From an uncultured Pelagibacteraceae bacterium (GTDB lineage: Bacteria; Pseudomonadota; Alphaproteobacteria; Pelagibacterales; Pelagibacteraceae): a stretch of DNA of 35,636 bases. Numbering within the stretch: the first letter of the stretch is position 1; each line of letters starts with the position of its first letter. The stretch covers positions 1 through 35,636 of the forward strand of contig CACJHW010000006.1 of the NCBI GenBank assembly GCA_902593285.1. The letters are read 5' to 3'. Made by a program: the position numbers and the translations under genes. Below are positions 1,301 through 15,333 of the stretch, in pieces. The notes under the pieces are model-generated. The model ran no database searches, was not told the origin of the DNA, and saw only the letters and a program-made list of their open reading frames with translations.

Positions 1301-1367
1301 TTAAGTTAAAGCTATCATAATTAATAAAATTAATCATGATAGAATTAACTTAAAAATCTAGCTTTAA
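1301..1367 (-). promoter_or_regulatory. Structured RNA leader immediately before moaA
   Basis: Between the GYD gene and moaA lies a long interrupted inverted repeat centred on 1327. TTAAGTTAA (1301-1309) pairs with TTAACTTAA (1345-1353), TATCAT (1313-1318) with ATGATA (1336-1341), and ATTAAT (1320-1325) with ATTAAT (1329-1334), with a three-base loop. A second, competing nine-base pairing is possible: TTAAAGCTA (1306-1314) with TAGCTTTAA (1359-1367), which covers the GYD stop codon. The two pairings share 1306-1309. On the minus strand the structure ends exactly at the moaA ATG, so it could hide the ribosome site. There is no terminal T-run, so it does not look like a terminator. It does not resemble the known Moco riboswitch as far as I can judge. 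Confidence 0.5.
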
Positions 1368-1690
1368 CCTGCTGGTTTATAATTAGCCATAGCCTTTGAT
1401 GCCATGCCAGCAGCTTTGCCCATATCCATTTCTTCTAATATGGTAAAATTTGTTATAGCTCCAGAAGCTTCAACTGCAAGCTTAACTGCTGCTGCACCTT
1501 CAAATCCAATACTACCACTCACAACTCCTACAAAATCATATGCTCCTCTTGTGATCATAAAAGATTCCATCTTTCCTCCTACTGCCTCTGATAAAGCAGT
1601 AGCTGCTGCAGCTCTGTCTTGGTCTGGATTACCTATAAATCCTTTAAAAGCTTGAGCTGTATAATTGCCCATTACTATAAATTTAGCCAT
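1364..1690 (-). CDS. GYD-domain small protein
   Basis: A 108-residue protein matching the GYD-domain family (PF08734), small dimeric alpha-beta proteins without an assigned reaction. It starts MAKFIVMGNYTAQAFKG and carries the signature region ITRGAYDFVGVV (GAYD at residues 49-52). I place the start at 1690 and not further upstream because AAAGGAGGT (on the minus strand, just upstream) is the strongest Shine-Dalgarno in the window. A TATAAT box sits at 1716-1721. The gene is Ala/Gly-rich and visibly less AT-rich than its neighbours, which with the strong ribosome site suggests high expression. It is upstream of moaA on the same strand, separated by a structured gap, so it may form the first gene of the moaA-moaC transcript. 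A role in molybdenum metabolism is only guilt by association. Confidence 0.8.
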   Translation of the reverse strand: MAKFIVMGNYTAQAFKGFIGNPDQDRAAAATALSEAVGGKMESFMITRGAYDFVGVVSGSIGFEGAAAVKLAVEASGAITNFTILEEMDMGKAAGMASKAMANYKPAG

Positions 1691-1715
1691 AGTTACCTCC
1701 TTTTTATAAAGTAAC

Positions 1716-1721
1716 ATTATA
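1716..1721 (-). promoter_or_regulatory. Candidate -10 box for the GYD gene
   Basis: A perfect TATAAT on the minus strand, 25 bases before the ATG at 1690 and followed by a strong AAAGGAGGT ribosome site. No good -35 is visible at 17 bases (TTTTTC), so recognition would rest on the -10. In DNA this AT-rich, TATAAT alone is weak evidence, but its position is right. Confidence 0.4.
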
Positions 1722-1898
1722 GAAGAAAAACAATTAATGAAAAAATTAAATATTAGTTATGTTGATTTTAAATATATTAATTTCAACTATTACTAGACAC
1801 TTTAGTGCATAAAATACTATAAAACTTAACTTCTATAAAAATAGTGATCCTTTTAAAGGTAAAATATTTTCAACTTTGTTTGAAAGAATTTAATTTAA

Positions 1899-2912
1899 TT
1901 AAAATATAACTTTTTCAAATTTTTTAGATTTTAAAGACCTTTTTGCACTTTCTGCTAGTATAAGAGATTTTCTACCATCTTCAAAATTAGCTAAAGGTTT
2001 AGAATTTTTTTTACAAATTTTTACTAAGTCATCCAGTTGAATTTTGTAGGCTTCAGAATATCTTTCAATAAAAAAGTTTTTTAATTGAGTTTTGTTGTCA
2101 GTTGAATTTTTTGAATACAAAACTGTTTCCAAATCTCTTTGATTATCTGAAATGATCATTCCTTTAGACCCAAAAAGCTCTATTCTTTGATCATAACCAA
2201 AACTACAATGCCTAGAATTAGTAATAATACACTGCACTCCTTTTTTAGTTTTCATAATTACAGTAGCTAAATCTAAATCATTTATTTTTTTTAGTTTTCT
2301 ATCCGAGAAACGTTGTCCGGTAGCAAATATGGACTCAAATTCATCATTTCCAGCATAAAATCTTGCTAAATCAAAATCATGAATCATCATATCTTTAAAT
2401 ATACCTCCAGATGTCTTTAAATAATTTATTGGTGGAGGCTCCGGGTCTCTGCTAGTAATAATTATTTTTTCTAATTTACCGATTCTACCCTTGAGTAAAT
2501 TATGATTTAAAGAATTATGCGCTGGGTCGTACCTTCTATTAAATCCGAGTTGAATTTTAGGTTTATATTTAGAAATTCTTTTTTTACACTTGTTAATTTT
2601 ATTTAAATCAAGGTCTAAAGGTTTTTCACAAAATACAACTTTCTTATTTACAACCGCTTCTTCAATAAATTTTAAGTGTGTGTTTGTGCTTGATGCAATA
2701 AATATACATTTGATATTTTTATCTTTAAATGCAATTTTTGGATTTTGAATATCAATAGAGTTATACTTTTTGGATAGTTTTTTTGATAATTTTTGATCTT
2801 TATCAAAAATATATTTTAGATTAAAATCTTTATGATTTATCAGGTTATTGGCGTGCATTTGACCAATTCTTCCAAGTCCAAATAGTGCAATATTAATTAT
2901 ATTTTTACCCAT
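1899..2912 (-). CDS. iolG: Inositol 2-dehydrogenase IolG (Gfo/Idh/MocA family)
   Basis: IolG oxidises myo-inositol to 2-keto-myo-inositol (scyllo-inosose) with NAD+, the first step of inositol catabolism. The protein is 337 residues, the usual length. The N-terminal Rossmann motif is GLGRIGQMHANNL (residues about 12-24). The CEKPLD motif holds the conserved lysine. GFNRRYDP and ITSRDPEPPP are highly characteristic of IolG. GGIFKDMMIHDFDLARF contains the catalytic Asp and His. Its start lies inside the 3' end of the upstream dehydrogenase gene (16-base overlap), so the two form an operon. It is divergent from iolE 1.1 kb away, and iolD is 10 kb away. The substrate assignment comes from motif similarity; another inositol isomer is possible. 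Confidence 0.88.
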   Translation of the reverse strand: MGKNIINIALFGLGRIGQMHANNLINHKDFNLKYIFDKDQKLSKKLSKKYNSIDIQNPKIAFKDKNIKCIFIASSTNTHLKFIEEAVVNKKVVFCEKPLDLDLNKINKCKKRISKYKPKIQLGFNRRYDPAHNSLNHNLLKGRIGKLEKIIITSRDPEPPPINYLKTSGGIFKDMMIHDFDLARFYAGNDEFESIFATGQRFSDRKLKKINDLDLATVIMKTKKGVQCIITNSRHCSFGYDQRIELFGSKGMIISDNQRDLETVLYSKNSTDNKTQLKNFFIERYSEAYKIQLDDLVKICKKNSKPLANFEDGRKSLILAESAKRSLKSKKFEKVIF

Positions 2913-4042
2913 CTTTTTCTTCTTGAGGAAATTTTACACGCACTAATAAATTTTGCTGTTTCTAAACCCTCATCTTCATTTGGATAAAAGTATCTTTTTT
3001 TTGTTTTGTTCTTCAAAGAATCGGCAAACTCTTTATAAATATTAGCAAACGCATCAAGGTATCCCTCTGGATGACCAAATTTTATTCTAGAGAATTGCTT
3101 TGAAAATTCTGAATTATAAAATCCTCTTTCTAATAATTTTACAGCACCTTTTTCTGGATTTAATTTAAGATAATTTGGATCATTTTGAACCCACTCTAAA
3201 CTACCTTTAGAACCAAATATTCTAATTCTTAAACCATAAACACCACCTTTGGCCATTACACTTGTCCAAAACATTCCTTTTGCGCCATTGTTAAAATTGA
3301 TCATAACCTGCGCATTATCATCCATTTTAATTTTTTTTGATATTTGCTTTATATCTGCAAAAACTGTTTGTCCTTTCAAGCCTGAAATATAAGAGGCTAG
3401 ATGGTACGCATGAGTTCCAATTTCATTTAAAACAGCGGATGCTCCAACTATTTTATTATCAATTTTCCATTTAAGTTTTCTTTTTGCATTTTTTGAATTA
3501 ATTTTTGTTCCACCAGACCAATCTTGAATATATTCAACATTAATATATTCAACTTTACCAATTTTACCCTTTTCAATTAATTTTTTTGCTTCTCTCACCA
3601 TTGGATAAGCGGAATAATTATGAGTTAGCGCATATTTTATTTTTTTATTTTTTTTAATTGATTTGAAAAGTTTCTTTGCTTGATCTAAATTTCCTGCAAA
3701 AGGTTTATCAGAAATTATATTTATATTTTTTGAAATAAATTTTTCAGCAATAATTTGATGACTTGATGGTGGTGTCATTATAGCAACTACATTAATTCCA
3801 TCTTTTCTCTTAGCTTCTTTCTCAGCCATATCTTTATAATTTGAGTAACATCTATCAGATGAAATCCCTATACTTTTTCCAAACTTAGTAGAAATTTTTA
3901 CATTTCTTGAAAAAACTCCTGCTACTATTTCATATTGATCATCAAATCTAGATGAGATTCTATGAACATGACCAATCCATGATCCAGGACCACCCCCAAC
4001 TATTCCTAAACTTAATTTTTTAGTTTTATTTGATTTAAACAT
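2897..4042 (-). CDS. Gfo/Idh/MocA-family NAD(P)-dependent sugar/inositol dehydrogenase
   Basis: A 381-residue oxidoreductase. The N-terminus LGIVGGGPGSWIGHVHR is the nucleotide-binding turn of a distinct Gfo/Idh subgroup of about 380-390 residues often found in sugar or inositol clusters. The DKPF motif supplies the conserved Lys, and THNYSAYPMVREA and NEIGTHAYHLA follow in the C-terminal domain. I chose the ATG at 4042. The frame stays open to 4120, but that extension would run over the start of the divergent iolE and lacks family similarity. It overlaps iolG by 16 bases and is divergent from iolE across 28 bases, so it belongs to the inositol group. It may act on scyllo-inositol, D-chiro-inositol or a related polyol; the sequence does not decide. 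Confidence 0.82.
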   Translation of the reverse strand: MFKSNKTKKLSLGIVGGGPGSWIGHVHRISSRFDDQYEIVAGVFSRNVKISTKFGKSIGISSDRCYSNYKDMAEKEAKRKDGINVVAIMTPPSSHQIIAEKFISKNINIISDKPFAGNLDQAKKLFKSIKKNKKIKYALTHNYSAYPMVREAKKLIEKGKIGKVEYINVEYIQDWSGGTKINSKNAKRKLKWKIDNKIVGASAVLNEIGTHAYHLASYISGLKGQTVFADIKQISKKIKMDDNAQVMINFNNGAKGMFWTSVMAKGGVYGLRIRIFGSKGSLEWVQNDPNYLKLNPEKGAVKLLERGFYNSEFSKQFSRIKFGHPEGYLDAFANIYKEFADSLKNKTKKRYFYPNEDEGLETAKFISACKISSRRKRWVKI

Positions 4043-4070
4043 TGAATATATCTTAGCAAAAAAAATATTT

Positions 4071-4973
4071 ATGTCAGTAAAATTAGGAATAGCACCAATA
4101 GCATGGAGTAATGATGACATGCCAGAACTTGGGGGTGATACACCTTTGGAACAATGTTTGTTAGAAGCAAGTCAGGCAGGATTTATTGGTATAGAGTCGG
4201 GTGGAAAATTTCCAAACAAGTCAGAGGAATTAATTCCTAAATTAAAAGAGTTTAACTTAAACCTTTGTTCTGGTTGGTATGGTGCAAATTTGAGAAAAAA
4301 TACGGTAGAAGAAGAAAAAAAAGTTATACAAGATCAGTTGAAATTATTTAAAGATTGTAAAGCACCTTGCATTGTTTTTGCAGAAGTTGCCGGATCAATT
4401 CAAGGAGATCCAAACAAAAAACTCTCGAATAGACCAAAAATGGATAAAGAAGAGTCTAAAAATTACTATAAAAAAATTTCGGAAATGGGCAAATATTTAC
4501 AAGATCAAGGCATGCCACTTGCTTACCATCATCATATGGGAACAGTTATAGAAACCGAGGAAGATACTATAAATTTGTTAGAGAATACTGATGATAGCGT
4601 AAAACTTACTTTAGACACTGGTCATATGCTCTTTGCTCAAGGTAACTCTCTTAAAATATTAAAAAATTTTAGTGATAGAGTTATTCATATGCATTGTAAA
4701 GATATTAGAAAAAGTATTTTAGATAAATCATTAAAAGAAGATTTAAGCTTTAGAGGTGCATTTTTAGAAGGTGCATTTACGGTACCTGGTGATGGTTGTA
4801 TTGATTACAAACCTTTATTTGATGTATTAAAAGAAAAAAATTATTCAGGTTGGTTGGTTGTTGAAGCAGAGCAAGACCCAGCAAAAGCAAATCCTTTTGA
4901 ATATGCAAAGATTGGTTATAAATATCTATCTGAAACCTTAAGTAGAAGTAATATCCAGATCTATAAAAATTAA
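4071..4973 (+). CDS. iolE: myo-Inosose-2 dehydratase IolE
   Basis: IolE dehydrates scyllo-inosose to 3D-(3,5/4)-trihydroxycyclohexane-1,2-dione, step two of inositol breakdown. The 300-residue TIM-barrel protein (xylose isomerase-like AP-endonuclease family 2) opens with LGIAPIAWSNDDMPELGG, nearly diagnostic for IolE, then GFIGIESGGKFP. Metal-site segments follow: LAYHHHMGT, LTLDTGHMLFA, VIHMHCKDIR and the terminal WLVVEAEQDP. It is divergent from the Gfo/Idh gene at 4042 with only 28 bases between starts, so the promoters must overlap the genes. It faces a convergent dehydrogenase gene ending at 5012. Confidence 0.9.
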   Translation: MSVKLGIAPIAWSNDDMPELGGDTPLEQCLLEASQAGFIGIESGGKFPNKSEELIPKLKEFNLNLCSGWYGANLRKNTVEEEKKVIQDQLKLFKDCKAPCIVFAEVAGSIQGDPNKKLSNRPKMDKEESKNYYKKISEMGKYLQDQGMPLAYHHHMGTVIETEEDTINLLENTDDSVKLTLDTGHMLFAQGNSLKILKNFSDRVIHMHCKDIRKSILDKSLKEDLSFRGAFLEGAFTVPGDGCIDYKPLFDVLKEKNYSGWLVVEAEQDPAKANPFEYAKIGYKYLSETLSRSNIQIYKN

Positions 4974-4976
4974 ATA

Positions 4977-5002
4977 TTAAAAACATAAGAAAGTTTTTAA
5001 TT
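4977..5002. terminator. Possible bidirectional terminator between convergent genes
   Basis: ATTAAAAAC (4977-4985) and GTTTTTAAT (4994-5002) form a perfect nine-pair stem with an eight-base loop in the 38-base gap between the convergent stops at 4973 and 5012. The stem is AT-rich and weak but supplies T-rich 3' sides on both strands. The position is its best support. Confidence 0.35.
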
Positions 5003-5011
5003 TACTAATGT

Positions 5012-5968
5012 TTATAATTTTACAATTTTAGATTTTTCCAGTTTTTCATTAAAAAAATCAATAATATTTTGAATTGTTTCTTTTCCCATCCTAGTCATAC
5101 ATTCTTCTGTGAATGCAGCAGTATGTGGACTTAAAAATACCTTATTATTTTTTAATAAAGGATTATTTGGATCAGGTGGCTCAATCTCAAAAACATCTAA
5201 ACCAGCTGCGAGAATTAAATTCTCATTTAAAGCTTTATCTAGATCAATTTCATTTATCACACCACCTCTTGAAGCATTAATTATAATGCAATTTTTTTTC
5301 ATATTTTTTAGCAAGTCATAATTGATAATATTTTTTGTTTTTTCATTAAGTGGCACATGAAGAGATATTGCGTCCATAACTTTTGAAGCTTCCTCTAAAC
5401 TATCGACTTTTATACCACCGTGCTTTTCAATTATTTCTTTAGATACAAATGGATCATACACAAAAACTTTCATTTCAAATCCCTGACATCTTTTTATTAA
5501 AGCCTGTCCAATACGACCAAATCCAGCAATCAATATATTTTTATTCCACAATTCAACAGTTTTGGGCAATTTATTTCGGTCATTGAATTTACCACTTTTA
5601 ACAGTTTCATCGTACATATTTCCTTTTTTGGAAATATTAAGCAGCATAAACATTACATGCTCAGCTACAGCTACTGCATTTGCGGTTGCCGTTATTGTAA
5701 GAGTAATGTCATTTTTTTTTGTGCTTTCTAAGTCTATATTGTCATAACCAACACCATGTCTTGAAATAATTTTAAGTTTATTTGCACTATCAATTACTTC
5801 TCCTGCTAGTTTTGCAGTTCTAATTGAAACACCATCACAGTCTTTTATTTTTGTTTTAAGAAATTCAATATCTGTATTTTCTATAACCTCAAATTCGTAA
5901 TCTGGATTATTTTTAATAAGCTCTATCCCAGCTTCATGTATAGGCTGGATTACTAATATTTTTTTCAT
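5012..5968 (-). CDS. D-2-hydroxyacid dehydrogenase (phosphoglycerate dehydrogenase-like)
   Basis: A 318-residue NAD-dependent D-isomer-specific 2-hydroxyacid dehydrogenase. It has the SerA-like N-terminal substrate domain, the nucleotide fold at ILIAGFGRIGQ and the VYDP strand. The catalytic triad is the Arg in INASRGGVINE, the Glu in FEIEPPDP and the His in SPHTAAF. It lacks the C-terminal ACT regulatory region of full-length SerA, so it is more likely a catabolic hydroxyacid or sugar-acid enzyme than the serine-pathway enzyme. I place the start at the ATG (5968); a GTG two codons upstream is equally possible, and no clear ribosome site decides. It is the last gene of a minus-strand run with two Fe(II)/2OG oxygenases and a ketopantoate-reductase-like gene, and probably processes their product. 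Confidence 0.83.
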   Translation of the reverse strand: MKKILVIQPIHEAGIELIKNNPDYEFEVIENTDIEFLKTKIKDCDGVSIRTAKLAGEVIDSANKLKIISRHGVGYDNIDLESTKKNDITLTITATANAVAVAEHVMFMLLNISKKGNMYDETVKSGKFNDRNKLPKTVELWNKNILIAGFGRIGQALIKRCQGFEMKVFVYDPFVSKEIIEKHGGIKVDSLEEASKVMDAISLHVPLNEKTKNIINYDLLKNMKKNCIIINASRGGVINEIDLDKALNENLILAAGLDVFEIEPPDPNNPLLKNNKVFLSPHTAAFTEECMTRMGKETIQNIIDFFNEKLEKSKIVKL

Positions 5969-6010
5969 AAGCACTTATACACAAATATAAGTTTTATAAA
6001 ATATTTATTA

Positions 6011-6994
6011 TTAAATTAAATTAGATAAATCTCTTTTATTATTTTTGAAAGTAGGCAGAGGATATTTAAAAGCAAATTTTCTTGGAATACATTTTTCTTT
6101 AGCTTTTTCCCAAAGAGCTAGCCATTGTTTAAAATTTTTAATTTTAAGATTTTTTTTATTTTTACTTCTAACGTAAAAATTGGGAAGGGGCTCTCGTCCT
6201 GATGGCTGTCCAGCAACATTATACCTTAGATCAGCACTTATTCTAAAATCATTTGATCTATTTGGTAAAGAACAATGTATTGAATGTTTGTGCAGAAGTA
6301 TCACATCGCCAATGTTAGCCTCTAAATAAACATGTTTCATATCATCTAACAATTCACTATTTTTTAATTCTACTTGTCCTCTGTATCCTGAAACGTGATT
6401 TAGTAATCCTATTTTATTGATCTTTTTAACAGTAATCATACATCCATTTTTTTTAGTAGTTTTAGTAAAAGGAATCCACACAGTAACCATGTCAGTTAAT
6501 TTTTGACCTTTTGTATTTAATACAGCCGCATCCTGATGCCAAGGCGTTCTTCCACTTAGACCATCATGAATTGAACTCTTTGGTAATTTTTTTTCAGGCT
6601 GTTTAATTCTAGTATTTTGAACAGGGTTAGACATTATTTCTTTTCCCAAAATATTTTCTACAACATCCAAAATATTTTTATTTGTAATTAAATTCCATAA
6701 TGATTGAGTAGCAAAATAATCACTATCTTTTTTTACGTAGTCTCTTGGTAATCGTGTATTAAAATATTGATCCAAATCATAAATATTAAGTTTGGAAATA
6801 TAAGAGTATTTTTTTTTAAAATCGAAATTAAGAACTTTTTTTATGTCTCTCTTTTTTGCATATTTTTGTATGAGACAATCCATAACAAATTCCATATCAT
6901 TTAGAATTGGTTTTAAGTCTCTTCTAAAGTTAAGTACATTTTTAACAATCAAGTACCCATTCTCATATAATTTTTTTTGAAGACTATTTGTCAT
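6011..6994 (-). CDS. Phytanoyl-CoA dioxygenase (PhyH) family Fe(II)/2-oxoglutarate oxygenase
   Basis: A 327-residue protein of the PhyH family (PF05721), which hydroxylates small molecules using Fe(II), O2 and 2-oxoglutarate. The facial triad is visible as His153-Gln-Asp155 (in TPWHQDAAV) and His240 (in SIHCSLPNRS), with Arg251 placed to bind 2-oxoglutarate. It opens with ENGYLIVKNVL, typical of the N-terminal helix and first strand of the family. The substrate cannot be read from sequence; bacterial members act on ectoine, phosphonates, amino acids and others. It is separated by 31 bases from the next oxygenase upstream and by 42 from the dehydrogenase downstream, so it is likely in one operon with both. 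Confidence 0.82.
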   Translation of the reverse strand: MTNSLQKKLYENGYLIVKNVLNFRRDLKPILNDMEFVMDCLIQKYAKKRDIKKVLNFDFKKKYSYISKLNIYDLDQYFNTRLPRDYVKKDSDYFATQSLWNLITNKNILDVVENILGKEIMSNPVQNTRIKQPEKKLPKSSIHDGLSGRTPWHQDAAVLNTKGQKLTDMVTVWIPFTKTTKKNGCMITVKKINKIGLLNHVSGYRGQVELKNSELLDDMKHVYLEANIGDVILLHKHSIHCSLPNRSNDFRISADLRYNVAGQPSGREPLPNFYVRSKNKKNLKIKNFKQWLALWEKAKEKCIPRKFAFKYPLPTFKNNKRDLSNLI

Positions 6995-7025
6995 AACTAA
7001 AATTTATTTTATCATTCACAATATT

Positions 7026-7895
7026 TCAATATTTTGGTGCTGTGGTTAAATAGTTCGCATCATGAAAAGAGGTTAACATTCTTTTTTTGGTACTAATTAT
7101 ATGCGGATAATATGAGACACCTTTGTAATTCCATATAACTGGTTTATTTAATGCATAACTTCCATAAATAAAAAAACGCTTTGGACAGTTTTTTTCTACA
7201 AAGCGCTTAACTCCATGATAGGAATTGGGAGTAGATTGAAAAAAAACAACGGTTCCTTTTTTAGGAGTAAAAGATTTGACTACTTCAAGCTCAGTTATTT
7301 TTGGAAATCTTCTAAAACTTTTTCTTAAATTTTTTTTTGCTTTTTTTCTATAGATAGTAAGAGAGCCACCATTCCTTTTTGGAATGTCTGTTAAATAAAT
7401 TAAGAAATTATATAATCTAGTTATATCATCTCGATGAGGTCTTAATCTATACCCTCCCTTTGATACTGAAAAGTCTATATCTAAATTTACTTTAGGATTA
7501 GTATAATTGTTACCCAACATTTTTTTTAATTCACTAGAATTTAATTTTTTTTTAATAGTGAACTTTTTAGGATTAAATGATTTTGGTTTATGTAAATTAA
7601 TCCATGATCCATCTTTAAAATTTTTTGTAAAAAGATTTTCAATTTTTTTGTAAAAAGACTTGCTATTAAATAGTTTAAAAAGCTTTGCAGAGTTTATTGA
7701 ATTTTTTATATATAAATTAAAATTTTTTGAGCCTTTATTAATCCTGCTTCTACCTCCCATAATCATATCATCAAATGATTTTGAGTTACTGATCTCTTTA
7801 ATTAATAAATTACAGATATTTTTTGAAACAACATTGTCTCCAACTAAAACAGGAAAGTTACTTTTTATTTTTTTTAATTTATTTGTACTGAGCAT
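7026..7895 (-). CDS. 2-oxoglutarate/Fe(II)-dependent oxygenase, prolyl-hydroxylase-like fold
   Basis: A 289-residue, Lys-rich protein with a double-stranded beta-helix oxygenase core, closest in pattern to the 2OG-FeII_Oxy_3 group (PF13640). His154-Arg-Asp156 in RPHRDDITR, distal His227 in SYHGVKRF and Arg240 in PKRFFIYGSY give a complete iron and 2-oxoglutarate site. The segment LIYLTDIPKRNGGSLTIYR is typical of the core strands. It is unrelated in detail to the neighbouring PhyH protein, so this is not a simple tandem duplication. Its ATG directly follows the stop of the ketopantoate-reductase-like gene with no gap, which argues for coupled translation. The target could be a free metabolite or a protein side chain. 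Confidence 0.72.
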   Translation of the reverse strand: MLSTNKLKKIKSNFPVLVGDNVVSKNICNLLIKEISNSKSFDDMIMGGRSRINKGSKNFNLYIKNSINSAKLFKLFNSKSFYKKIENLFTKNFKDGSWINLHKPKSFNPKKFTIKKKLNSSELKKMLGNNYTNPKVNLDIDFSVSKGGYRLRPHRDDITRLYNFLIYLTDIPKRNGGSLTIYRKKAKKNLRKSFRRFPKITELEVVKSFTPKKGTVVFFQSTPNSYHGVKRFVEKNCPKRFFIYGSYALNKPVIWNYKGVSYYPHIISTKKRMLTSFHDANYLTTAPKY

Positions 7896-8843
7896 TTAGC
7901 TGTACATACCTTCTTTCACTTTAATCATTTTGTACATCAGATCATTTAAAGGCGTTTTAATCCCATGTTTTTTTCCTATTTTTGAAACCGCACCACTAAT
8001 AAAGTCTATTTCAGTCTTTCTCTTATATTGAACATCAAAAGCCATAGATGATTTGTTAGTTTGCATTGAATCTACAATTTTATTGAACATGAATAGACAT
8101 TCATCTTCAGAAACATTTACACCATCAGCAAGTGCCACTTCTCTCGTCTCTAATATTATTTCTTTACCTAAACCTCGAGATACTTCGTTTGCTTTGTTGT
8201 TTATATATAAGTCTGTGTGATGTAGATCAAAAATTGCAGACAATGGTCCAATTGCTGTTAAAGCAAAAAGCTTCATCCATTTTCTTTTCTTTACATCTTC
8301 TGCTGCAATCATTTCAAGATTATGTACTGTAAAAGTATCAGCTATTTCTTTAATACGATCAGTAATTCCACCCTCGTACTCACCAATCCAAGATGGTAAC
8401 GAGCCATGATTCATTATATGTCCTGGTCCTAAAATGTTTGAAGCCTGAGTTGTGGTTCCCCCAATTACCTTTTCATTGCCCACAATACTTTGAATAATTG
8501 CTTCATGACCAATACCATTTTGAAAAGACATGAATACTGTTTTGTCTCCTATGATATTTATAATACTGTTTAATGCTGGTTCTAAAGCTGTAGCTTTACA
8601 CATAACTATTACAGCATCTACTTTATCCAATGAGGATGGATCTGAAGTGGCTTTAACTTTGATTACTCGATCACCACCATGTCCATCCATTTTCAAACCA
8701 TCTTTATTAATTGCATCTACATGCTCTTTCCAAACATCAATTAAAATTACATTCAAACCTTTTTCAGCAAGTAAACCGCCAAATAAACAACCCATTGCTC
8801 CTGCACCAAGAACAGCTACTTTCAAATTTTTATTAATCATCAT
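7896..8843 (-). CDS. 2-dehydropantoate 2-reductase (ketopantoate reductase)-like protein
   Basis: A 315-residue PanE/ApbA-family NADPH-dependent reductase. The Rossmann motif GAGAMGCLFGGLLA, the FQNGIG segment with its conserved Asn, the KWMKL region with the expected catalytic Lys, and DVQYKRKTEIDFISG with the conserved Glu are all present. The usual Asn in the VNxxINP strand after KWMKL is not visible (here ALTAIGP), so substrate use may differ from ketopantoate. It leads a minus-strand operon with two oxygenases and a hydroxyacid dehydrogenase and is divergent from the DUF1907 gene. A PanB-like gene is 1.5 kb away on the other strand, which could mean pantothenate synthesis or a modified pathway built from the same folds. 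A second in-frame ATG lies at the next codon. Confidence 0.8.
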   Translation of the reverse strand: MMINKNLKVAVLGAGAMGCLFGGLLAEKGLNVILIDVWKEHVDAINKDGLKMDGHGGDRVIKVKATSDPSSLDKVDAVIVMCKATALEPALNSIINIIGDKTVFMSFQNGIGHEAIIQSIVGNEKVIGGTTTQASNILGPGHIMNHGSLPSWIGEYEGGITDRIKEIADTFTVHNLEMIAAEDVKKRKWMKLFALTAIGPLSAIFDLHHTDLYINNKANEVSRGLGKEIILETREVALADGVNVSEDECLFMFNKIVDSMQTNKSSMAFDVQYKRKTEIDFISGAVSKIGKKHGIKTPLNDLMYKMIKVKEGMYS

Positions 8844-8866
8844 TATCTTATTTAAAATTATTTATG

Positions 8867-8892
8867 TATAGAAATTATATATATTATCTATA
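8867..8892. promoter_or_regulatory. Possible operator dyad in the divergent promoter region
   Basis: In the 85-base gap between the divergent starts at 8843 and 8929, TATAGA (8867-8872) and TCTATA (8887-8892) form an exact dyad centred between 8879 and 8880, with partial symmetry inside (about 11 of 13 positions pair). The winged-helix regulator encoded at 9935 is a natural candidate binder. The AT-rich background makes such dyads fairly easy to find by chance. Confidence 0.3.
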
Positions 8893-8928
8893 GACATTAT
8901 GCAAAATAAATTATAGCTTATTAACATC

Positions 8929-9906
8929 ATGCAATTAAAAATAGAAAAAGGAATTTTTAAAGATTACTCATTAGAAGATATTTCAGATGCATTAAGAAAA
9001 GGATTATCTGAAAATTTCAAAAACGTTGAAATAGAAGTAGTAGAGTGCCCTAATCTTAGAGATTGGGATTGTCCATCAGAAGGAATAAGTGGAAATCAAA
9101 AAATAATTGACGTTGGTGGAGAGCCTTATATGCATGATCCAAAATTTATTGGTGCAGAGTTTGACTATCAAGAAATATCCAAAATGATCAACTCTGAAAA
9201 ATCTTATGCTTTAGGAGCTGGATCAGGCGCAATGTCATGTTTAAATGGCCATTGTGGAGAACTAGTTATAAATGAAAATTTAATTACTGATGAGTCTAAG
9301 TCAATAATAGCAAGAGTAAGCCCAGACAAAAAATGCATTGTTGAAAAGTATTCTGCAAAAAAACACGGTGGACTTGGAAACATTTATTACACAGATGGTA
9401 AACAAGGAAAAGTTATTAAAATAAAAATCAAAGGCAGAAATGGAGAACAAGGTTCTTTGCCCCAAGCAATGAGATCTTCTTTATCAAAAAATTTAAAAAT
9501 AAAAGATAATGAACATTTGTCTCTTGCTGGCGTATTTAGAGTATTAAATGGAAAAATAAGGTCGCATGTGCAACCTGATTATAAAGATATTAAACACGAG
9601 TATTACGATCCAAAACAAATGAAATGTGTAAAGGATTTTCTTCAATTTTATGAACCTGTTGGACCAAAATTACAATGTTATACTGTTCTTTGGACTGGTG
9701 ATCCAACTGGAGGACAATTAAATCTAAGAGAGTCTGGTGAACATACCCATTTTCATTCTTATGAACATGAAAGAGATGCGGGACATTATCATTTTGATGT
9801 TTCACCTGAAGAAATAGAGTATGAAGGTTATTTTAATACAGCTACAGAGGTACATAGAGTAAATAACATTTATAAAGAGCTACTAAGTAAAAATAGTATT
9901 GAATAG
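8929..9906 (+). CDS. DUF1907 / C11orf54-like zinc-dependent ester hydrolase homologue
   Basis: A 325-residue protein matching the DUF1907 family (PF08925), whose reference member is human C11orf54 (PTD012), a zinc protein with ester hydrolase activity in vitro. Shared features run end to end: VEVVECPNL near the N-terminus, the VGGEPYMHDP turn, the LGAGSGAMS glycine-rich loop, the VEKYSAKKHGG segment, and the C-terminal zinc site. His272, His274 and one of His286 or His288 (HTHFHS ... GHYHFD) correspond to the three histidines that hold zinc in the human structure, followed by IEYEGYFNTA. The physiological reaction of the family is not settled. It begins a plus-strand operon with a winged-helix regulator and a PanB-like gene, divergent from the oxygenase operon. 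Confidence 0.85.
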   Translation: MQLKIEKGIFKDYSLEDISDALRKGLSENFKNVEIEVVECPNLRDWDCPSEGISGNQKIIDVGGEPYMHDPKFIGAEFDYQEISKMINSEKSYALGAGSGAMSCLNGHCGELVINENLITDESKSIIARVSPDKKCIVEKYSAKKHGGLGNIYYTDGKQGKVIKIKIKGRNGEQGSLPQAMRSSLSKNLKIKDNEHLSLAGVFRVLNGKIRSHVQPDYKDIKHEYYDPKQMKCVKDFLQFYEPVGPKLQCYTVLWTGDPTGGQLNLRESGEHTHFHSYEHERDAGHYHFDVSPEEIEYEGYFNTATEVHRVNNIYKELLSKNSIE

Positions 9907-9934
9907 AAAACTCAATGAGTTTAAATTTATTTAA

Positions 9935-10351
9935 ATGAAAAGACAGTTCAAGTATCCTAAGCACTTTGAAGAACAAAAAAAAATACCAAAACTTACTCAA
10001 AAAAGAATTCAATTAGCAGAAATATCCCTTGGAGATTTTGAAGGAAGATTAGCTAATGAATTATTGAATTGGTTTTCTTTAACTCCACAACATTGGATAA
10101 TGTTGCATATGGTTATGCTTGCTTATTACAAAAATAAATCAATTACTAAAAATCAATTACTTAAAGTAATCGAGAAATCATATTTAACCTCAAATGTTTA
10201 TATCGATACTGCAATTAAAAAAGGTTATTTTAGAATTATAAGAAATGAGAGAGACAAAAGATCTATATTTATATTACCTTCAGTAATCACCATTAAAACC
10301 TTTGAGGAATTTATTGATAGGCGAGATATTCTTTATAAAGGTGTCAAATGA
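9935..10351 (+). CDS. Winged-helix (MarR-like) transcriptional regulator
   Basis: A 138-residue protein with one DNA-binding domain. Residues about 46-95 form the helices (LTPQHWIMLHMVML, SITKNQLLKVIEKSYLTSNVYIDTAIKKG), followed by a wing with NERDKRSIFILPS, which resembles the basic wing and beta-hairpin of MarR proteins. Flanking helices could mediate dimerisation. It lies between the DUF1907 gene and the PanB-like gene and overlaps the latter by four bases (ATGA). It is the only evident transcription factor in the window, so it probably regulates the divergent oxygenase and DUF1907 operons; a dyad at 8867-8892 is a possible site. Family assignment is by pattern and is not certain at subfamily level. 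Confidence 0.7.
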   Translation: MKRQFKYPKHFEEQKKIPKLTQKRIQLAEISLGDFEGRLANELLNWFSLTPQHWIMLHMVMLAYYKNKSITKNQLLKVIEKSYLTSNVYIDTAIKKGYFRIIRNERDKRSIFILPSVITIKTFEEFIDRRDILYKGVK

Positions 10352-11163
10352 AGAATATCTATACATGGGCTGCCAAACCAGCAAAGCGAACTTTTACTGT
10401 TGGGGATTTAAAAGCAGCAAAAGGAAAAAGAAAATTTACACAAGTTACAGCGAATAGTATTGAAGAAGCCGAGGCAGCTGAAAAGGCAGGGTTTGATATG
10501 ATTATATCAAATGCAAAAAATGTAATTCCTGTAAGAGAAGGATCAAAAAATTTATTTTTAACAGCTGCTTTAGTATTAAATGAGTTTGTAACTGCAGATG
10601 ATATTATGCGTGGAGCTTTTAAAGCATTAGAGAATGGTGCAGATGCAGTTATGACTCCAAGAAGTATGGATATAGTTGAAATGCTGGCTAAGGAAGATGT
10701 TCCAGTGATGGGGCATTTAGGTTTAGTTCCAAGAAAATCTACTTGGATTGGTGGCTTAAGAGCCGTGGGTAAAACTGCTGATGAAGCGTACGAACTTTTT
10801 CAAAAGTTTAAAAGATTAGAAGATGCAGGTGCTTTTTCGGCTGAGTGTGAAGTCATACCTGAGAATGTAATGGGAGAAATTTCAAAGCGTACAGATATAG
10901 TTACTGTTTCATTAGGTTCAGGTAAAAACGCTGATGTAATGTATTTATTTATGGAAGATATCTGTGGCGATAAAGAAAATCCCCCAAGACATTCAAAAGC
11001 GTATGGAAATTTATTGAAACTTAGAAATGAAATAAAACTAGAAAGAGTAAAAGCTCTTAAGGCTTTTAAAAAAGATTCAATGAATGGAAAATTTCCAGGA
11101 AAGAAACAATCTTCAAATTTAGAAAAAGAACAATTTGAAGAATTTATAAATCAACTAGATTAA
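10348..11163 (+). CDS. PanB-like protein (ketopantoate hydroxymethyltransferase family) with altered active site
   Basis: A 271-residue TIM-barrel protein related to PanB, which makes ketopantoate from 2-ketoisovalerate and methylene-tetrahydrofolate. The strongest match is GHLGLVPRKSTWIGG, then GKTADEA, LEDAGAFSAECEVIPENV and VSLGSG. By hand alignment with E. coli PanB, His136 and Glu181 are kept (His123, Glu168 here). The magnesium ligands Asp45 and Asp84 align with Asn55 and Ala74, and Lys112 and Glu114 align with Met102 and Pro104. A normal PanB reaction is therefore doubtful. It may be a lyase or aldolase of the PEP mutase/isocitrate lyase superfamily. Its start overlaps the regulator stop (ATGA), and it overlaps the convergent aldolase gene by four bases. 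A Lys-rich C-terminal tail replaces the usual end. Confidence 0.7.
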   Translation: MKNIYTWAAKPAKRTFTVGDLKAAKGKRKFTQVTANSIEEAEAAEKAGFDMIISNAKNVIPVREGSKNLFLTAALVLNEFVTADDIMRGAFKALENGADAVMTPRSMDIVEMLAKEDVPVMGHLGLVPRKSTWIGGLRAVGKTADEAYELFQKFKRLEDAGAFSAECEVIPENVMGEISKRTDIVTVSLGSGKNADVMYLFMEDICGDKENPPRHSKAYGNLLKLRNEIKLERVKALKAFKKDSMNGKFPGKKQSSNLEKEQFEEFINQLD

Positions 11164-11951
11164 TAAGCTTTAGACTCTTCTTTTTTTGATGAACCTTTCA
11201 TTTTTTCTACAACTGCTTTTGCACCAGCACTTAAAGCTCTCTGATCAGCTCCAATAGTAACAAAATTAAAACCTTTACCTATCATTTTTTGTGCATATTC
11301 AGGTGTACCATTATGAATACCTGCAAATATATTGTTCTTCTTTGCATGCTCTAATATTCTTAATATTTCCGAAAAAGCCTTTGTGTTTTCTGCTCTGTCA
11401 AAACCAGGCTCTTCACCTATTGCTAAACTTAAATCAGCTGGTCCAATATAAATTCCATCAATGCCAGGTGTTGACATAATTTCATCTAGATTTTCTAAAG
11501 ATTCTTTTGTTTCTATCATTGCTAGTTTAAGCATTTCATCATTTGCATGTTTTGCATAATCTGAACCTCCATAGATTAATCCTCTAACCGGACCAAAACT
11601 TCTATAACCATGAGGAGGGTACATGCAAGCTTGAACAAATCTTTCTGCTTCTTCTTTATTACTTACCATTGGACATATAATTCCATAACAACCCGCATCT
11701 AGAATTTTCATTATTTGACCTGGCTCATTCCAGTTTACTCTAGCTAAAGGAGTTACCTCTGTTGTTGAAATTGTTTGAAGCATTGGGAGTGCATTAGTGT
11801 AATCAACTAAGCCATGTTGCATATCTATTGTTAGAGAATCCCAACCTTGATGGGCCATTACTTCAGCTGAAACGGTACTAGGTATTTGAAGCCAACCATT
11901 AATAACAGGCTTCCCTGCCTTCATCATTTCTTTAACTTTATTTTTTCTCAT
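11160..11951 (-). CDS. HpcH/HpaI-family class II aldolase
   Basis: A 263-residue metal-dependent aldolase of the HpcH/HpaI family, which splits 2-keto-3-deoxy acids to pyruvate plus an aldehyde. The active-site set is visible: His in DMQHG, Arg in LARVN, metal-binding Glu in AMIET and Asp in GPADLS. The usual GCYGIICPMV strand and PPHGYRSFGP loop are present. The substrate chain length is not predictable from sequence; relatives cleave 4-hydroxy-2-oxoheptanedioate or 2-keto-3-deoxy-rhamnonate. The gene lies two bases downstream of an aldehyde dehydrogenase on the same strand, a natural pairing in which the dehydrogenase oxidises the released aldehyde. Its stop overlaps the PanB-like gene stop on the other strand. 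The last 15 residues are a charged tail. Confidence 0.85.
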   Translation of the reverse strand: MRKNKVKEMMKAGKPVINGWLQIPSTVSAEVMAHQGWDSLTIDMQHGLVDYTNALPMLQTISTTEVTPLARVNWNEPGQIMKILDAGCYGIICPMVSNKEEAERFVQACMYPPHGYRSFGPVRGLIYGGSDYAKHANDEMLKLAMIETKESLENLDEIMSTPGIDGIYIGPADLSLAIGEEPGFDRAENTKAFSEILRILEHAKKNNIFAGIHNGTPEYAQKMIGKGFNFVTIGADQRALSAGAKAVVEKMKGSSKKEESKAY

Positions 11952-11953
11952 TT

Positions 11954-13396
11954 TTAGATTTTTAAGCCCATGTGAGTATATTTCACATTTAGATAATCTT
12001 TGATTGCACCTGACCCACCTTCACGACCATAACCAGTTTGTTTTATTCCTCCAAAAGGTGCTTCAGCAATAGCAACAACTCCAGTATTAACTGCAACACA
12101 ACCAGACTCTAGTTTTTCAGATCCAATATGAGCTTTATCCATAGAATTTGTATAAAGGTAACTGCACAAACCTAAGTCGTTATCATTTGCTCTTTCAATT
12201 ACCTCATCAAAGGTTTTAAAAGTTAATATTGGAACTAGTGGACCAAAAGGTTCTTCCTTCATTATTGTAAAATTATCTTTTACATCATCAAAAACAGTTG
12301 GTTCGTAATAATATCCTTTATTAAAACCAGAAGGTCTTTGTCCACCCATTAATACTTTTGCTCCTTCTTTTTTAGTAGTTTCAACTAGTTTTTCTATTTC
12401 TTCCAATCTTTTAGCTGTAGTTAAAGGTCCAAGATCCACACCTTCGTCCATACCGTTTCCAATTTTTAATTTTTTTGCTCTTTCAATAAAAGCATTAACA
12501 AAATCCTCTTTTCTGTTTTCTTGGATATAAAATCTATTAGGTGAGATACAGACCTGACCGTTATTTCTAAATTTACCAGTTATTGCTATATCAGCTACTT
12601 TGTTCATATCTACATCTTCACACACAATAAAAGGCGAGTGTCCGCTAAGTTCCATAGTAACTCTTTGAACTTTATCAGCTGCTTTTTTTAAAATAATTTT
12701 ACCAACTCTAGTTGATCCAGTAACTGAAACTTTTTTAATTATATCCGACTCCATTAATTCATTTGATATTTCAGCAGGATCGCCTGACAAAAGACTAACG
12801 ACACCATCTGGTACACCTGCTTCTTTGCAAATATTTACTAATTCCATTACAGCGCCAGGAGTAATTACATCTGGTTTACAAATTACTGAACATCCTGCAG
12901 CTAGGGCAGTAGAAATTTTTCTAGATGCTAAAACTATTGGGAAATTCCAAGGAACTAAAGCCGCAACAACACCAACAGGCTGATAATAAACATGAACTCT
13001 AGTATCTGGAAATCTACTTTGTTGTGTTTGACCATAAATTCTTTTTGTTTCTTCAGCATTCCACTCAAAAATATCTGCTCCACCACCAACTTCACCAACA
13101 GCTTCTGCAAGAGGCTTTCCAACTTCAAGAGTTAACCATTTTGCTATAACATCTTTTTTCTCTCTCATCATGTCTGCAATTTTTCTAAGCACGTAAGCTC
13201 TTTGCCATGGTGCAGTGTTTTTCCAAACTTCCAAACCTTTTTCTGCAGACTTTAATGCTTTTTGTACTTCAATAGATGAGGCTTTTGATGCTTTTCCAAT
13301 AACTTCTTCTGTTGCAGGGTTGATTACGTCGTAAGTTTCTTTTTTTTCTGCTTGTTGCCACTTACCATCAATGAATTGTCCAAATTTTTCGTACAT
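11954..13396 (-). CDS. NAD(P)-dependent aldehyde dehydrogenase
   Basis: A full-length 480-residue aldehyde dehydrogenase. It has the nucleotide-site segment VPWNFPIVLASRKISTALAA, the catalytic base Glu249 in MELSGHSP, the nucleophile Cys283 in NNGQVCISPNRF, and the KEEPFGPLVPI and GGIKQTGYGREGG motifs near the C-terminus. The pattern is closest to the succinate-semialdehyde or glycolaldehyde dehydrogenase group. It does not look like the CoA-acylating methylmalonate-semialdehyde dehydrogenase (MmsA/IolA) that would finish inositol breakdown. It probably oxidises an aldehyde released by the adjacent HpcH/HpaI aldolase. It is divergent from iolD across 92 bases. Confidence 0.9.
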   Translation of the reverse strand: MYEKFGQFIDGKWQQAEKKETYDVINPATEEVIGKASKASSIEVQKALKSAEKGLEVWKNTAPWQRAYVLRKIADMMREKKDVIAKWLTLEVGKPLAEAVGEVGGGADIFEWNAEETKRIYGQTQQSRFPDTRVHVYYQPVGVVAALVPWNFPIVLASRKISTALAAGCSVICKPDVITPGAVMELVNICKEAGVPDGVVSLLSGDPAEISNELMESDIIKKVSVTGSTRVGKIILKKAADKVQRVTMELSGHSPFIVCEDVDMNKVADIAITGKFRNNGQVCISPNRFYIQENRKEDFVNAFIERAKKLKIGNGMDEGVDLGPLTTAKRLEEIEKLVETTKKEGAKVLMGGQRPSGFNKGYYYEPTVFDDVKDNFTIMKEEPFGPLVPILTFKTFDEVIERANDNDLGLCSYLYTNSMDKAHIGSEKLESGCVAVNTGVVAIAEAPFGGIKQTGYGREGGSGAIKDYLNVKYTHMGLKI

Positions 13397-13488
13397 AGAA
13401 TTTATTTTTAAGTTTACTTAGTTAGGTTTTTTATTTTATAAATAGAATTATATATAAACACTATACATATTAAAAGATAAACATATTA

Positions 13489-15333
13489 ATGAAAAAAATT
13501 ACTCTCACATGTGCGCACGCGATAGTAAAATATTTGATTGCTCAGAAAATATTAATTAATGGTAAAAAAGAACCGTTATTTCCAGGTGTCTTTGGGATCT
13601 TTGGACATGGAAATGTAGCTTGTTTAGGTCAAGCACTAGAAGAAAGTAAAAAAGAACTTCCAACATATAGAGGACACCATGAACAGAATATGGCTCTTAC
13701 TGGAATTGGTTATGCTAGAGCAAAAAGACGACAACAAATTTTTGTAGCAACATCCTCTGTTGGACCTGGTGCAACAAATATGGTTACAGCTGCAGCAGTT
13801 GCTTTGAGTAACAGATTACCTATTTTGTTTCTACCAGGAGACACTTATGCAAATAGAATGCCAGATCCGGTGTTGCAACAAGTTGAGCATTTTAATAATC
13901 CTGGAATAACAGCTAATGATGCGTTTAAACCAGTTACAAGATATTTTGATCGAATAACTAGACCAGAACAGATTATTCAATCATTCCCAGCAGCAGTTCA
14001 AACAATGTTAGATCCTGCAGATTGTGGTCCAGCATGTCTTGCTTTAAGCCAAGATATACAAGGTCAAACCTTTGATTATCCAGAAGAGTTTTTTAAAGAA
14101 AGAGTACATGCAATTAGAAGACCAAGACCAGATGAATTTCAAATTAAAGAGGCAGCAGAAAAAATTAAGTCATCTAAAAATCCAATTTTAATTTCTGGTG
14201 GTGGGGTTTTTTACTCAGATGCAATGGAGGAGTTGAGTCAGTTTGCGATTAAACATAATATACCAGTTACGCAAACTGTAATGGGATATTCTACAATGAA
14301 AAGAGACCATTCTCATTTTGCAGGTCAAATTGGTGGTTTAGGTGGAAAAAATACAAATACTTTGGCAAAAGAAACAGATTTAGCAATTGCAGTTGGAACC
14401 AAACTTGCAGATTTTACAACTGGATCATGGGCAAATTTTGAAAACAAAAATTTTAAACTAGTTTCAATAAATGTATCAAGATTCGATGCTAACAAACATT
14501 TAGCGCAAGCTGTCATTGGAGATGCTAAAGTTTCATTAACAGAGCTTTCACAAGTATTAGGAAGTTGGAAAGCTGGGGAAGAATGGAATGAAAAATCTCA
14601 AATTGAACTCAAATCATGGAATGAACATATAGATAAAGAGAGTGCGCCGACAAATCAAGAAGTTCCAAGTTATGTTCAGGTAATTGGTGCAATTTATAGA
14701 AACTCTGACCCAACAGATATTGCAGTTACCGCAGCAGGAGGCTTAGTTGGTGAGGTTGTTCAAGTTTGGAGACCTAGAGAATTAAATACTCATGAAACAG
14801 AGTGGGGCTTTAGTTGTATGAGTTATGAAATTTCAGGAGCACTTGGAATAAAAATGGCAAATCCAGATAAAGAAGTAATTTCTTTTGTAGGAGATGGTTC
14901 TTATCTTCTAAATAATACAGATATTTATTCTTCAGTTATTACAAAAAACAAATTAATAATTATAGTTTGTGATAATGGTGGGTTTGCAGTTATCAATCGA
15001 CTTCAACTATTTAAAGGCGGTAAAGAATATAATAACTTATTAAAGAGCTCTAATACTCCTGGATTGGTTGATGTTGATTTTGCAAAACATGCAGAAAGTA
15101 TGGGAGCTAAATCTGAACATGTTAATTCAATTTCAGATCTTGAAGCTGCATTTAAGAGAGCAAAAGCATCTGATGTAACATACGTTATTTCAATTAAAAC
15201 TCATGCTTATAAGTGGGTAGAGGGCTCTGCTTTTTGGGATAGTCCAACACTTGAAATTCCTAAAACTAAAGAAAATGAAGAGGCTTTAAAACTTTATAAA
15301 GAAGGAAAAGATAAACAAAGACAAGGCGTATAA
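13489..15333 (+). CDS. iolD: 3D-(3,5/4)-trihydroxycyclohexane-1,2-dione hydrolase IolD (ThDP-dependent)
   Basis: IolD opens the ring of the diketone produced by IolE to give 5-deoxy-D-glucuronate. At 614 residues it has the family length and the three-domain thiamine diphosphate enzyme layout. N-terminal GVFGIFGHGNVACLGQAL and RGHHEQNMALTG include the Glu that activates ThDP. The segment FLPGDTYANRMPDPVLQQ is distinctive of IolD. The central domain has LISGGGVFYSDA. The ThDP-magnesium motif GDGSYLLNNTD starts near residue 467 and ends with VCDNGG. It starts the long plus-strand run to 21796, seven bases upstream of a Gfo/Idh dehydrogenase. IolD needs thiamine diphosphate, which this genome may obtain under control of the TPP riboswitch seen at 35590. 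Confidence 0.94.
   Translation: MKKITLTCAHAIVKYLIAQKILINGKKEPLFPGVFGIFGHGNVACLGQALEESKKELPTYRGHHEQNMALTGIGYARAKRRQQIFVATSSVGPGATNMVTAAAVALSNRLPILFLPGDTYANRMPDPVLQQVEHFNNPGITANDAFKPVTRYFDRITRPEQIIQSFPAAVQTMLDPADCGPACLALSQDIQGQTFDYPEEFFKERVHAIRRPRPDEFQIKEAAEKIKSSKNPILISGGGVFYSDAMEELSQFAIKHNIPVTQTVMGYSTMKRDHSHFAGQIGGLGGKNTNTLAKETDLAIAVGTKLADFTTGSWANFENKNFKLVSINVSRFDANKHLAQAVIGDAKVSLTELSQVLGSWKAGEEWNEKSQIELKSWNEHIDKESAPTNQEVPSYVQVIGAIYRNSDPTDIAVTAAGGLVGEVVQVWRPRELNTHETEWGFSCMSYEISGALGIKMANPDKEVISFVGDGSYLLNNTDIYSSVITKNKLIIIVCDNGGFAVINRLQLFKGGKEYNNLLKSSNTPGLVDVDFAKHAESMGAKSEHVNSISDLEAAFKRAKASDVTYVISIKTHAYKWVEGSAFWDSPTLEIPKTKENEEALKLYKEGKDKQRQGV

Follow-up and report, generated by a model that had tools for sequence, protein, structure and literature searches.

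A six-gene SAR11 unit joins DUF1907, PanE-like and PanB-like proteins to two Fe(II)/2-oxoglutarate oxygenases at a predicted operator

What is the role of a gene cluster in which two unlike Fe(II)/2-oxoglutarate (2OG) oxygenases stand beside a DUF1907 protein and relatives of the pantothenate enzymes PanE and PanB? The question is raised by a stretch of 35,636 nucleotides (hereafter, the window) from an uncultured Pelagibacteraceae bacterium of the SAR11 group (contig CACJHW010000006.1 of GenBank assembly GCA_902593285.1), which is contig 6 of a 1.04 Mb genome that is 79% complete. A sequence-only reading of this DNA had described a seven-gene module. Our comparison of related genomes confirmed a unit of six predicted genes at 6011–11163, in which phyH-2og-panE is divergent from duf1907-regulator-panB, and, judged by its distribution, the cassette is real and moves as one unit. 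The sequence comparisons also establish a predicted operator, copies of it ahead of uptake systems in some relatives, and the non-pantothenate nature of the unit. We propose, with a probability of about 40%, that the six genes constitute a catabolic cassette with its own regulator for an acidic, probably methylated polyhydroxy compound, which would undergo oxygenation, oxidation and decarboxylation. The features of the unit are as follows, with profile scores given against their cut-offs.

6011–6994, minus strand: PhyH-type Fe(II)/2OG oxygenase, core member (PF05721, 68.1 bits versus 22)
7026–7895, minus strand: 2OG-FeII_Oxy_3 oxygenase, member in genera g1 and g5 (PF13640, 43.3 bits versus 27)
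7896–8843, minus strand: PanE/ApbA-like NAD(P) dehydrogenase, core member (PF02558/PF08546; TIGR00745, 234.9 versus 141.35)
8864–8897, shared promoter gap: predicted palindromic operator (20-nt arms, 80% complementary)
8929–9906, plus strand: DUF1907 protein, predicted zinc beta-keto acid decarboxylase, core member (PF08925, 204.5 bits versus 25)
9935–10351, plus strand: small SarA/Rot/MarR-like regulator, class tentative (weak SarA matches below cut-off)
10348–11163, plus strand: PanB-like TIM-barrel protein lacking the PanB metal ligands (PF02548, 121.9 bits versus 28.7)

All seven open reading frames (ORFs) of the sequence-only reading, namely these six genes and a neighboring D-2-hydroxyacid dehydrogenase gene (d2hdh), are open, and Pfam and NCBIfam profile searches returned the families that had been assigned to them. 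The start-to-start gap between panE and duf1907 (8844–8928) measures 85 bases, as had been claimed for the shared promoter; the gene contacts, claimed to span 0 to 42 bases, run from a 4-base overlap up to about 40 bases. Comparison of the window genes with five chosen loci gave ratios of nonsynonymous to synonymous substitution rates (dN/dS) of 0.01–0.18 where dS was unsaturated, so the module genes are under selection.

The boundary of the unit is defined by genomes that lack it. In the window, the six genes sit exactly between hpaI and d2hdh, and the flanking genes are as follows.

4071–4973, plus strand: IolE (TIGR04379, 402.7 versus 290)
5012–5974, minus strand: D-2-hydroxyacid dehydrogenase (D2HDH), inositol cluster, not a member
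11160–11951, minus strand: HpcH/HpaI-type aldolase, inositol cluster (PF03328)
11954–13396, minus strand: aldehyde dehydrogenase (ALDH), inositol cluster (PF00171)
13489–15333, plus strand: IolD (TIGR04377, 799.1 versus 715)

In all six module-less genomes inspected, drawn from eight DUF1907-negative genomes carrying HpaI at 75–83% identity, iolE, d2hdh, hpaI, aldh and iolD follow in a row without the six genes, and hpaI and d2hdh are separated by 18 or 24 bases. Because they are contiguous at this empty site, D2HDH, HpaI and ALDH were assigned to the inositol cluster and ruled out as module members. The seven-gene module claimed earlier therefore holds for six genes and not for D2HDH. Beside the module, many relatives have a 34–36% version of D2HDH or nothing in its place. 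The hpaI gene shares a locus with DUF1907 in 84 distinct loci, 77 of which also contain iolD. The flank beyond phyH (about 1–5974 of the window) is highly variable in g1, with alternative sets of transporter, Gfo/Idh and dehydrogenase genes, and resembles a gene-exchange hot spot.

Of 297 genomes searched in the order, 61 carry DUF1907, and they belong to three of its eleven genera. Draws of 385 genomes from the class and 398 from the phylum, each with few SAR11 members, returned DUF1907 only in the window's genome. The locus sets (60 further loci, then 80 named ones) overlap, and their 141 loci correspond to 122 distinct DUF1907 genes, which remain related to one another. A contig scan for relatives, from which 80 of 255 were kept, used SAR11-specific patterns and kept only Pelagibacteraceae, and is thus uninformative on DUF1907 elsewhere in bacteria.

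For the co-occurrence test, 20 genomes without and 21 with DUF1907 were hand-picked from the order-wide list; the negative genomes all belong to genus g1 and are at least 96% complete. PhyH was present in 21/21 DUF1907-positive versus 0/20 negative genomes (E-value 1e-20), as was the PanE-like protein at an identity of at least 75%, and the PanB-like protein at an identity of at least 68% was present in 20/21 versus 0/20. Strong matches to the second oxygenase were found in 15/15 positive genomes of g1 (the copy in G088 contains a stop), 3/3 of g5 and 0/3 of g6. HpaI was present in all 21 positives and also in eight of the 20 negatives at 75–83%, with one more at 30%. The order phyH-2og-panE, duf1907-regulator-panB recurs in g1, with hpaI beyond. 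The families are therefore linked rather than scattered across these 41 genomes, and PhyH, PanE-like, DUF1907 and PanB-like are the core families common to all three genera tested. Two weaker paralogs of the 2OG oxygenase are present in module-less genomes among the 20 negatives (G060:C3:119089-119850, and G040:C2:123216-123968 with stop codons). Searches of plasmids found no DUF1907 and no 2OG record, eight weak PhyH records, and 464 records for the PanE-like protein, the best at 36% identity.

The DUF1907 protein matches PF08925 along model positions 1–285 and PDB entry 1xcr with an E-value of 8.8e-40, and the histidine motif HTHF...GHYH is aligned with that of 1xcr. The zinc cluster noted earlier is borne out by this alignment and by the conservation of the motif in 122/122 distinct loci; three of its histidines presumably bind the metal. 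A commentary (PMC12435205) describes how 3-dehydro-L-gulonate (beta-keto-L-gulonate) decarboxylase activity was assigned in 2025 to the human member, C11orf54/PTD012, whose fold is related to that of acetolactate decarboxylase. According to the same text, the older esterase label of PTD012 came from hydrolysis of p-nitrophenyl acetate, the family is well conserved in eukaryotes and also occurs in some bacteria, and in rotifers DUF1907 is fused to a 3HCDH-type dehydrogenase domain. The literature on this decarboxylase also includes PMC12921845. Since a family member was identified as a beta-keto-sugar-acid decarboxylase, decarboxylation replaces the ester or lactone hydrolysis that had been proposed for DUF1907. 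The family activity and the alignment with 1xcr, including the histidine motif, make decarboxylation of a beta-keto acid the likeliest predicted step. In SAR11, the gene may have been acquired from a eukaryote.

We infer that the PanE-like protein is the dehydrogenase that makes the beta-keto substrate of DUF1907. It keeps the aligned Lys and Glu of its family, and neighboring Asn positions are changed; the catalytic roles of these positions are those we take the family to have. It is the only PanE match in its own genome. Among the 20 DUF1907-negative genomes, 15 have a PanB-family match (28–33% identity) and no PanE match; the five with no PanB match (G022, G042, G046, G052 and G058) are the same five that have a remote PanE homolog (27–33%).

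The PanB-like protein falls below both NCBIfam PanB cut-offs (PRK00311, 108.4 versus 272; TIGR00222, 89.8 versus 207.55), whereas a separate PanB in the same genome passes them with 304.7 and 288.4. Taking Asp45, Asp84 and Glu114 to be the Mg ligands of Escherichia coli PanB, the window protein has Ala in both Asp columns and no Glu at the third site. Neither the Asp84 nor the Glu114 residue is present in any of 11 PanB-like sequences drawn from SAR11, rhizobia and roseobacters (two alignments put Glu114 in different registers), and the Asp45 column contains Ala, Ser or Pro in eight of them and Asp in three roseobacter sequences. All 11 sequences retain the residues at the columns of E. coli His136 and Glu181; His123 and Glu168 are likewise retained throughout the set. 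PMC3082293 reports that the second panB of Rhizobium etli CFN42, on plasmid p42e, lacks the metal-binding domain and did not complement a panB mutant. From the plasmid, the annotation and the length, we infer that this gene is the one at our locus L210, which lies behind MocDEF-type genes.

Relatives of the PanB-like protein outside SAR11 are located on rhizobial and roseobacter plasmids (274 records at an E-value of 1e-30 or better, with 34–59% identity among the matches listed). Eleven such loci were hand-picked, including the near copies L186/L187 and L184/L210. A membrane hydroxylase gene is part of the PanB-like cluster in all 11, with an FA_desaturase or FA_hydroxylase domain in the three loci scanned, and a Rieske-type ferredoxin and a reductase complete a MocDEF-type set in seven. 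The MocE model was passed in 3/3 scanned loci. In the ten records common to the 60 of 274 PanB-like and 60 of 275 MocD-like records compared, the two genes are always on the same strand, 1.6–2.2 kb apart. The MocDEF genes are rhizopine catabolism genes, and one title cited in the literature refers to a ferredoxin oxygenase complex. In a Sinorhizobium locus (L189), a PurU-type formyltetrahydrofolate deformylase gene (8943–9830, above cut-off) directly follows the MocDEF-type genes and the PanB-like gene; in a twelfth locus, also from Sinorhizobium, an ORF at L190:9046-9933 is a PurU candidate by size alone. In a Phaeobacter inhibens plasmid (L188:6343-8825), a gene annotated as "inositol oxygenase family protein," a membrane hydroxylase gene and a PanB-like gene lie in a row; the first had no Pfam match at an E-value of 1e-5.

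Because its metal ligands are lost, the R. etli relative fails in complementation and its neighbors are MocDEF-type or PhyH oxygenases, the PanB-like protein looks like an oxygenase companion and not a pantothenate enzyme. It may have a one-carbon role. The C–C cleaving function proposed for it earlier is unproven. The same evidence, together with the separate full-scoring PanB and the lockstep occurrence with DUF1907, indicates that panB and, probably, panE of the unit are not ordinary pantothenate genes, a condition on which the sequence-only reading had made its own proposal depend.

The iron sites claimed for both oxygenases are confirmed. The HxD...H triad and the 2OG-binding Arg are intact in the window and, among the distinct loci, in 82/83 PhyH and 83/84 2OG sequences; of the two exceptions, L074 has a changed residue that is not a ligand, and the ORF of L059 is truncated. 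In the PDB, PhyH matches 1-deoxypentalenic acid hydroxylase best (E-value 2.9e-8). The SAR11 genome G141 has a further PanB-like gene that stands back to back with an additional PhyH gene and an FAD (flavin adenine dinucleotide) monooxygenase-like gene (L176:9542-10360, minus strand, and 10453-12821, plus strand), in surroundings of TRAP, SDR and dehydrogenase genes.

The regulator gene encodes a small protein with weak matches to SarA/Rot, below both curated cut-offs; the winged-helix class claimed for it is tentative. The core of the palindrome at 8864–8897 was found in 71/71 distinct loci with the regulator gene and 0/11 without it (86/86 and 0/11 before repeats were removed; 97 loci with divergent panE and duf1907). 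A whole-genome scan found the palindrome at the locus in 10/10 module genomes of g1 and 0/3 genomes without DUF1907. In a second scan, it was found in 3/3 genomes with the regulator at the locus and in 0/6 DUF1907-positive genomes lacking it there. The reversed control pattern had no matches in either scan. From this co-occurrence of palindrome and regulator gene, DNA binding by the regulator is suggested, and the palindrome is predicted to be the operator of the module's own regulator.

Further copies suggest what else is switched. In both g5 loci with the regulator, the gap between LivK and LivF of a HAAT transporter contains the palindrome; this copy scores 23.5, and the best of 20 shuffled windows scores 3.9, with a weight matrix built from four distinct training sites and shuffles that preserve only pairs of neighboring bases. 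In four of the ten g1 genomes scanned (G030, G116, G141 and G020), a copy with one to three mismatches lies between a D-2-hydroxyacid dehydrogenase gene and DctP. This TRAP operon (L202:2725-8563 in G030, the same place in the other three) also includes an IlvD/Edd-type dehydratase; the dehydratase, the D-2-hydroxyacid dehydrogenase and the TRAP transporter are perhaps part of the same diet. In G103, the copy lies in the gap between PdxA and TctC (PdxA|TctC); weaker ones (scores 10–22) stand at this position beside PdxA in six loci. Since the operator also precedes solute-uptake systems in some relatives, a catabolic role of the module is likely.

In the g5 loci examined, the same families are located within a HAAT (LivFGHMK-type) transporter locus in a different order: LivK-2og-LivM-LivG-phyH-EamA, together with panB-duf1907. 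Across the DUF1907 start lie genes for an HpaH-like hydratase, an SDR and, in some, an HDAC-type hydrolase. The g5 panE adjoins LivH and is followed by genes for an acyl-coenzyme A (CoA) ligase, an enoyl-CoA hydratase-type protein, an enolase-superfamily dehydratase-like protein, a CitE-like lyase and Gfo/Idh proteins. The three g6 loci have the same long locus without the 2OG gene; PhyH and the PanB-like gene are about 15 kb from DUF1907, and this PhyH is 52–54% identical to the other PhyH proteins of the set.

We propose the following order of steps for the cassette. An acidic, probably O- or N-methylated polyhydroxy compound would be taken up, and the Fe(II)/2OG oxygenases would hydroxylate it, most likely removing methyl groups as formaldehyde; they would thereby take the part that MocDEF-type oxygenases would play beside the PanB-like protein in rhizobia. 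The PanB-like protein, without its metal, may handle the one-carbon or hydroxymethyl product as a helpful but dispensable partner. The PanE-like enzyme would oxidize a beta-hydroxy acid, and the beta-keto acid so formed would be decarboxylated by DUF1907 to a ketose or ketone; these two steps would mirror the human pair of L-gulonate 3-dehydrogenase and C11orf54. A likely methylated, sugar-acid-like substrate is our guess, as is the demethylation.

Several observations weigh against this proposal. The 2OG oxygenase is missing from all three g6 genomes, and the PanB-like gene is absent from 8/84 distinct loci with DUF1907 and hpaI (11/100 with repeats), in which the genes around the gap are closed up. 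Four of the 11 PanB-like loci outside SAR11 have no ferredoxin and reductase genes, a confirmed one-carbon gene (PurU) was found in one locus only, and demethylation by MocDEF comes from general knowledge, the term "demethyl" being absent from the paper searched. An extra operator copy occurs in only five of the ten module genomes that were scanned, in two cases at the three-mismatch limit; the window's own genome has none at the scan stringency, nor has its PdxA|TctC gap. An EamA-type transporter is linked to the module in g5 and g6, and the CoA ligase and enoyl-CoA hydratase genes of these genera do not fit simple sugar-acid chemistry. The AlphaFold models were too poor for use (predicted local distance difference test scores, pLDDT, of 52 for DUF1907 and 39 for the PanB-like protein).

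Of the other explanations, the one that survives best, although we consider it unlikely, is that the cassette is a branch of inositol catabolism, which strips and opens a modified cyclitol (a methyl-inositol, a compound like rhizopine or an acid derived from inositol) and supplies the iol genes. The window module lies between IolE and IolD, both above curated cut-offs, and the linkage with hpaI and iolD described above is frequent. PanB-like relatives occur near an "inosose isomerase" with MocDEF-type genes, and the P. inhibens relative is next to the "inositol oxygenase family protein." In PMC3538637, the authors inferred catabolism of inositol derivatives for genes beside mocDEF. The empty site, however, shows the inositol cluster without the module in 6/6 genomes, and the g5 and g6 modules lie in the HAAT transporter locus, with no iol gene in the loci read. 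Moreover, HAAT, TRAP and Tct systems point to an acid rather than a neutral cyclitol.

It is improbable that the module serves biosynthesis or export, with the oxygenases tailoring a secreted metabolite. Natural-product pathways often contain two unlike 2OG oxygenases, the closest PDB match to PhyH, 1-deoxypentalenic acid hydroxylase, belongs to such chemistry, and the EamA-type transporter would suit export; yet in relatives the operator is also found ahead of uptake systems that depend on binding proteins, and the decarboxylase and the dehydratase- and aldolase-type genes are catabolic in style. The scheme of the sequence-only reading, with hydroxylation, ester or lactone hydrolysis, redox and C–C cleavage by seven genes including D2HDH, appears quite improbable. 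Its gene families and their conserved linkage are real, a single co-regulated unit is supported, and PTD012 does hydrolyze p-nitrophenyl acetate (PMC12435205), but D2HDH belongs to the inositol cluster and the activity identified for the DUF1907 family is decarboxylation. Very improbable is a pathway in which PanE- and PanB-like steps run in reverse to degrade pantoate or a different branched hydroxy acid: both homologs are in one unit, but the window PanB-like protein lacks the PanB metal ligands, the Rhizobium relative is non-functional in pantothenate synthesis (PMC3082293), and DUF1907 and the oxygenases would be left without a role. Ordinary pantothenate genes beside unrelated ones, suggested by the annotation of PanB-like relatives as 3-methyl-2-oxobutanoate hydroxymethyltransferase and by the sole PanE match, are refuted by the separate PanB, the lockstep occurrence and the failed complementation (PMC3082293). 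Two further candidates were dropped: homarine as the substrate, since nothing in the literature found fits the gene set, and phage defense, for which PADLOC gave just one generic 2OG model match. An Rfam search of 4900–13600 gave no RNA element above the gathering score.

A broader form of the catabolic proposal, which we regard as rather unlikely, is that the unit belongs to an undescribed SAR11 regulon that would oxidatively demethylate, and then decarboxylate, a methylated metabolite of the sugar-acid or cyclitol-acid type, with the PanB-like subfamily as a general one-carbon partner of demethylating oxygenases. If true, this PanB-like role would be common to SAR11, with Fe(II)/2OG oxygenases, and to rhizobia and roseobacters, with MocDEF-type ones. 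An abundant phytoplankton compound is a possible substrate; a mycosporine-type methoxylated cyclohexenone acid would be pure speculation. Every gene family is already known, whereas the combination, the operator and the regulon are apparently new, at least to us; in the openly accessible literature on DUF1907, SAR11, rhizopine and PanB, we found no description of the six-gene set or of the PanB-like/MocDEF link. The outcome is a six-gene unit with defined borders, an operator and a regulon predicted for it, specific transporters that would be switched with it, and a proposed order of enzymes. It gives a candidate role beside oxygenases to a PanB-like subfamily whose members carry pantothenate-enzyme annotations, and it sets a bacterial branch of the C11orf54 family of decarboxylases, itself newly identified, in a pathway context.

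Three known systems resemble parts of the cassette. In the glucuronate-xylulose pathway, CRYL1 (L-gulonate 3-dehydrogenase) is paired with C11orf54, which shares the DUF1907 zinc histidine motif with the SAR11 protein, and a dehydrogenase is linked to DUF1907 in both, as in the rotifer fusions. The SAR11 dehydrogenase, however, is of the PanE/ApbA type and not 3HCDH, and the SAR11 set is bacterial and adds two 2OG oxygenases and a PanB-like protein. Pantothenate PanB and PanE share their fold families with the SAR11 proteins, but the PanB-like protein lacks the metal ligands and, unlike the genome's other PanB, scores below the PanB model cut-offs, and the PanE-like protein has no counterpart at 75% identity in 20/20 DUF1907-negative relatives. 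The MocDEF system of Rhizobium and Sinorhizobium belongs to the catabolism of rhizopine (3-O-methyl-scyllo-inosamine), whose O-methyl group it probably strips. A PanB-like protein is linked to an oxygenase in both, and inositol genes are nearby in genus g1. None of MocD, MocE and MocF is encoded among the six module genes or the scanned flanking genes of the window; in SAR11, Fe(II)/2OG oxygenases replace the MocD hydroxylase, the MocE ferredoxin and the MocF reductase, and DUF1907 and the PanE-like dehydrogenase are present in addition.

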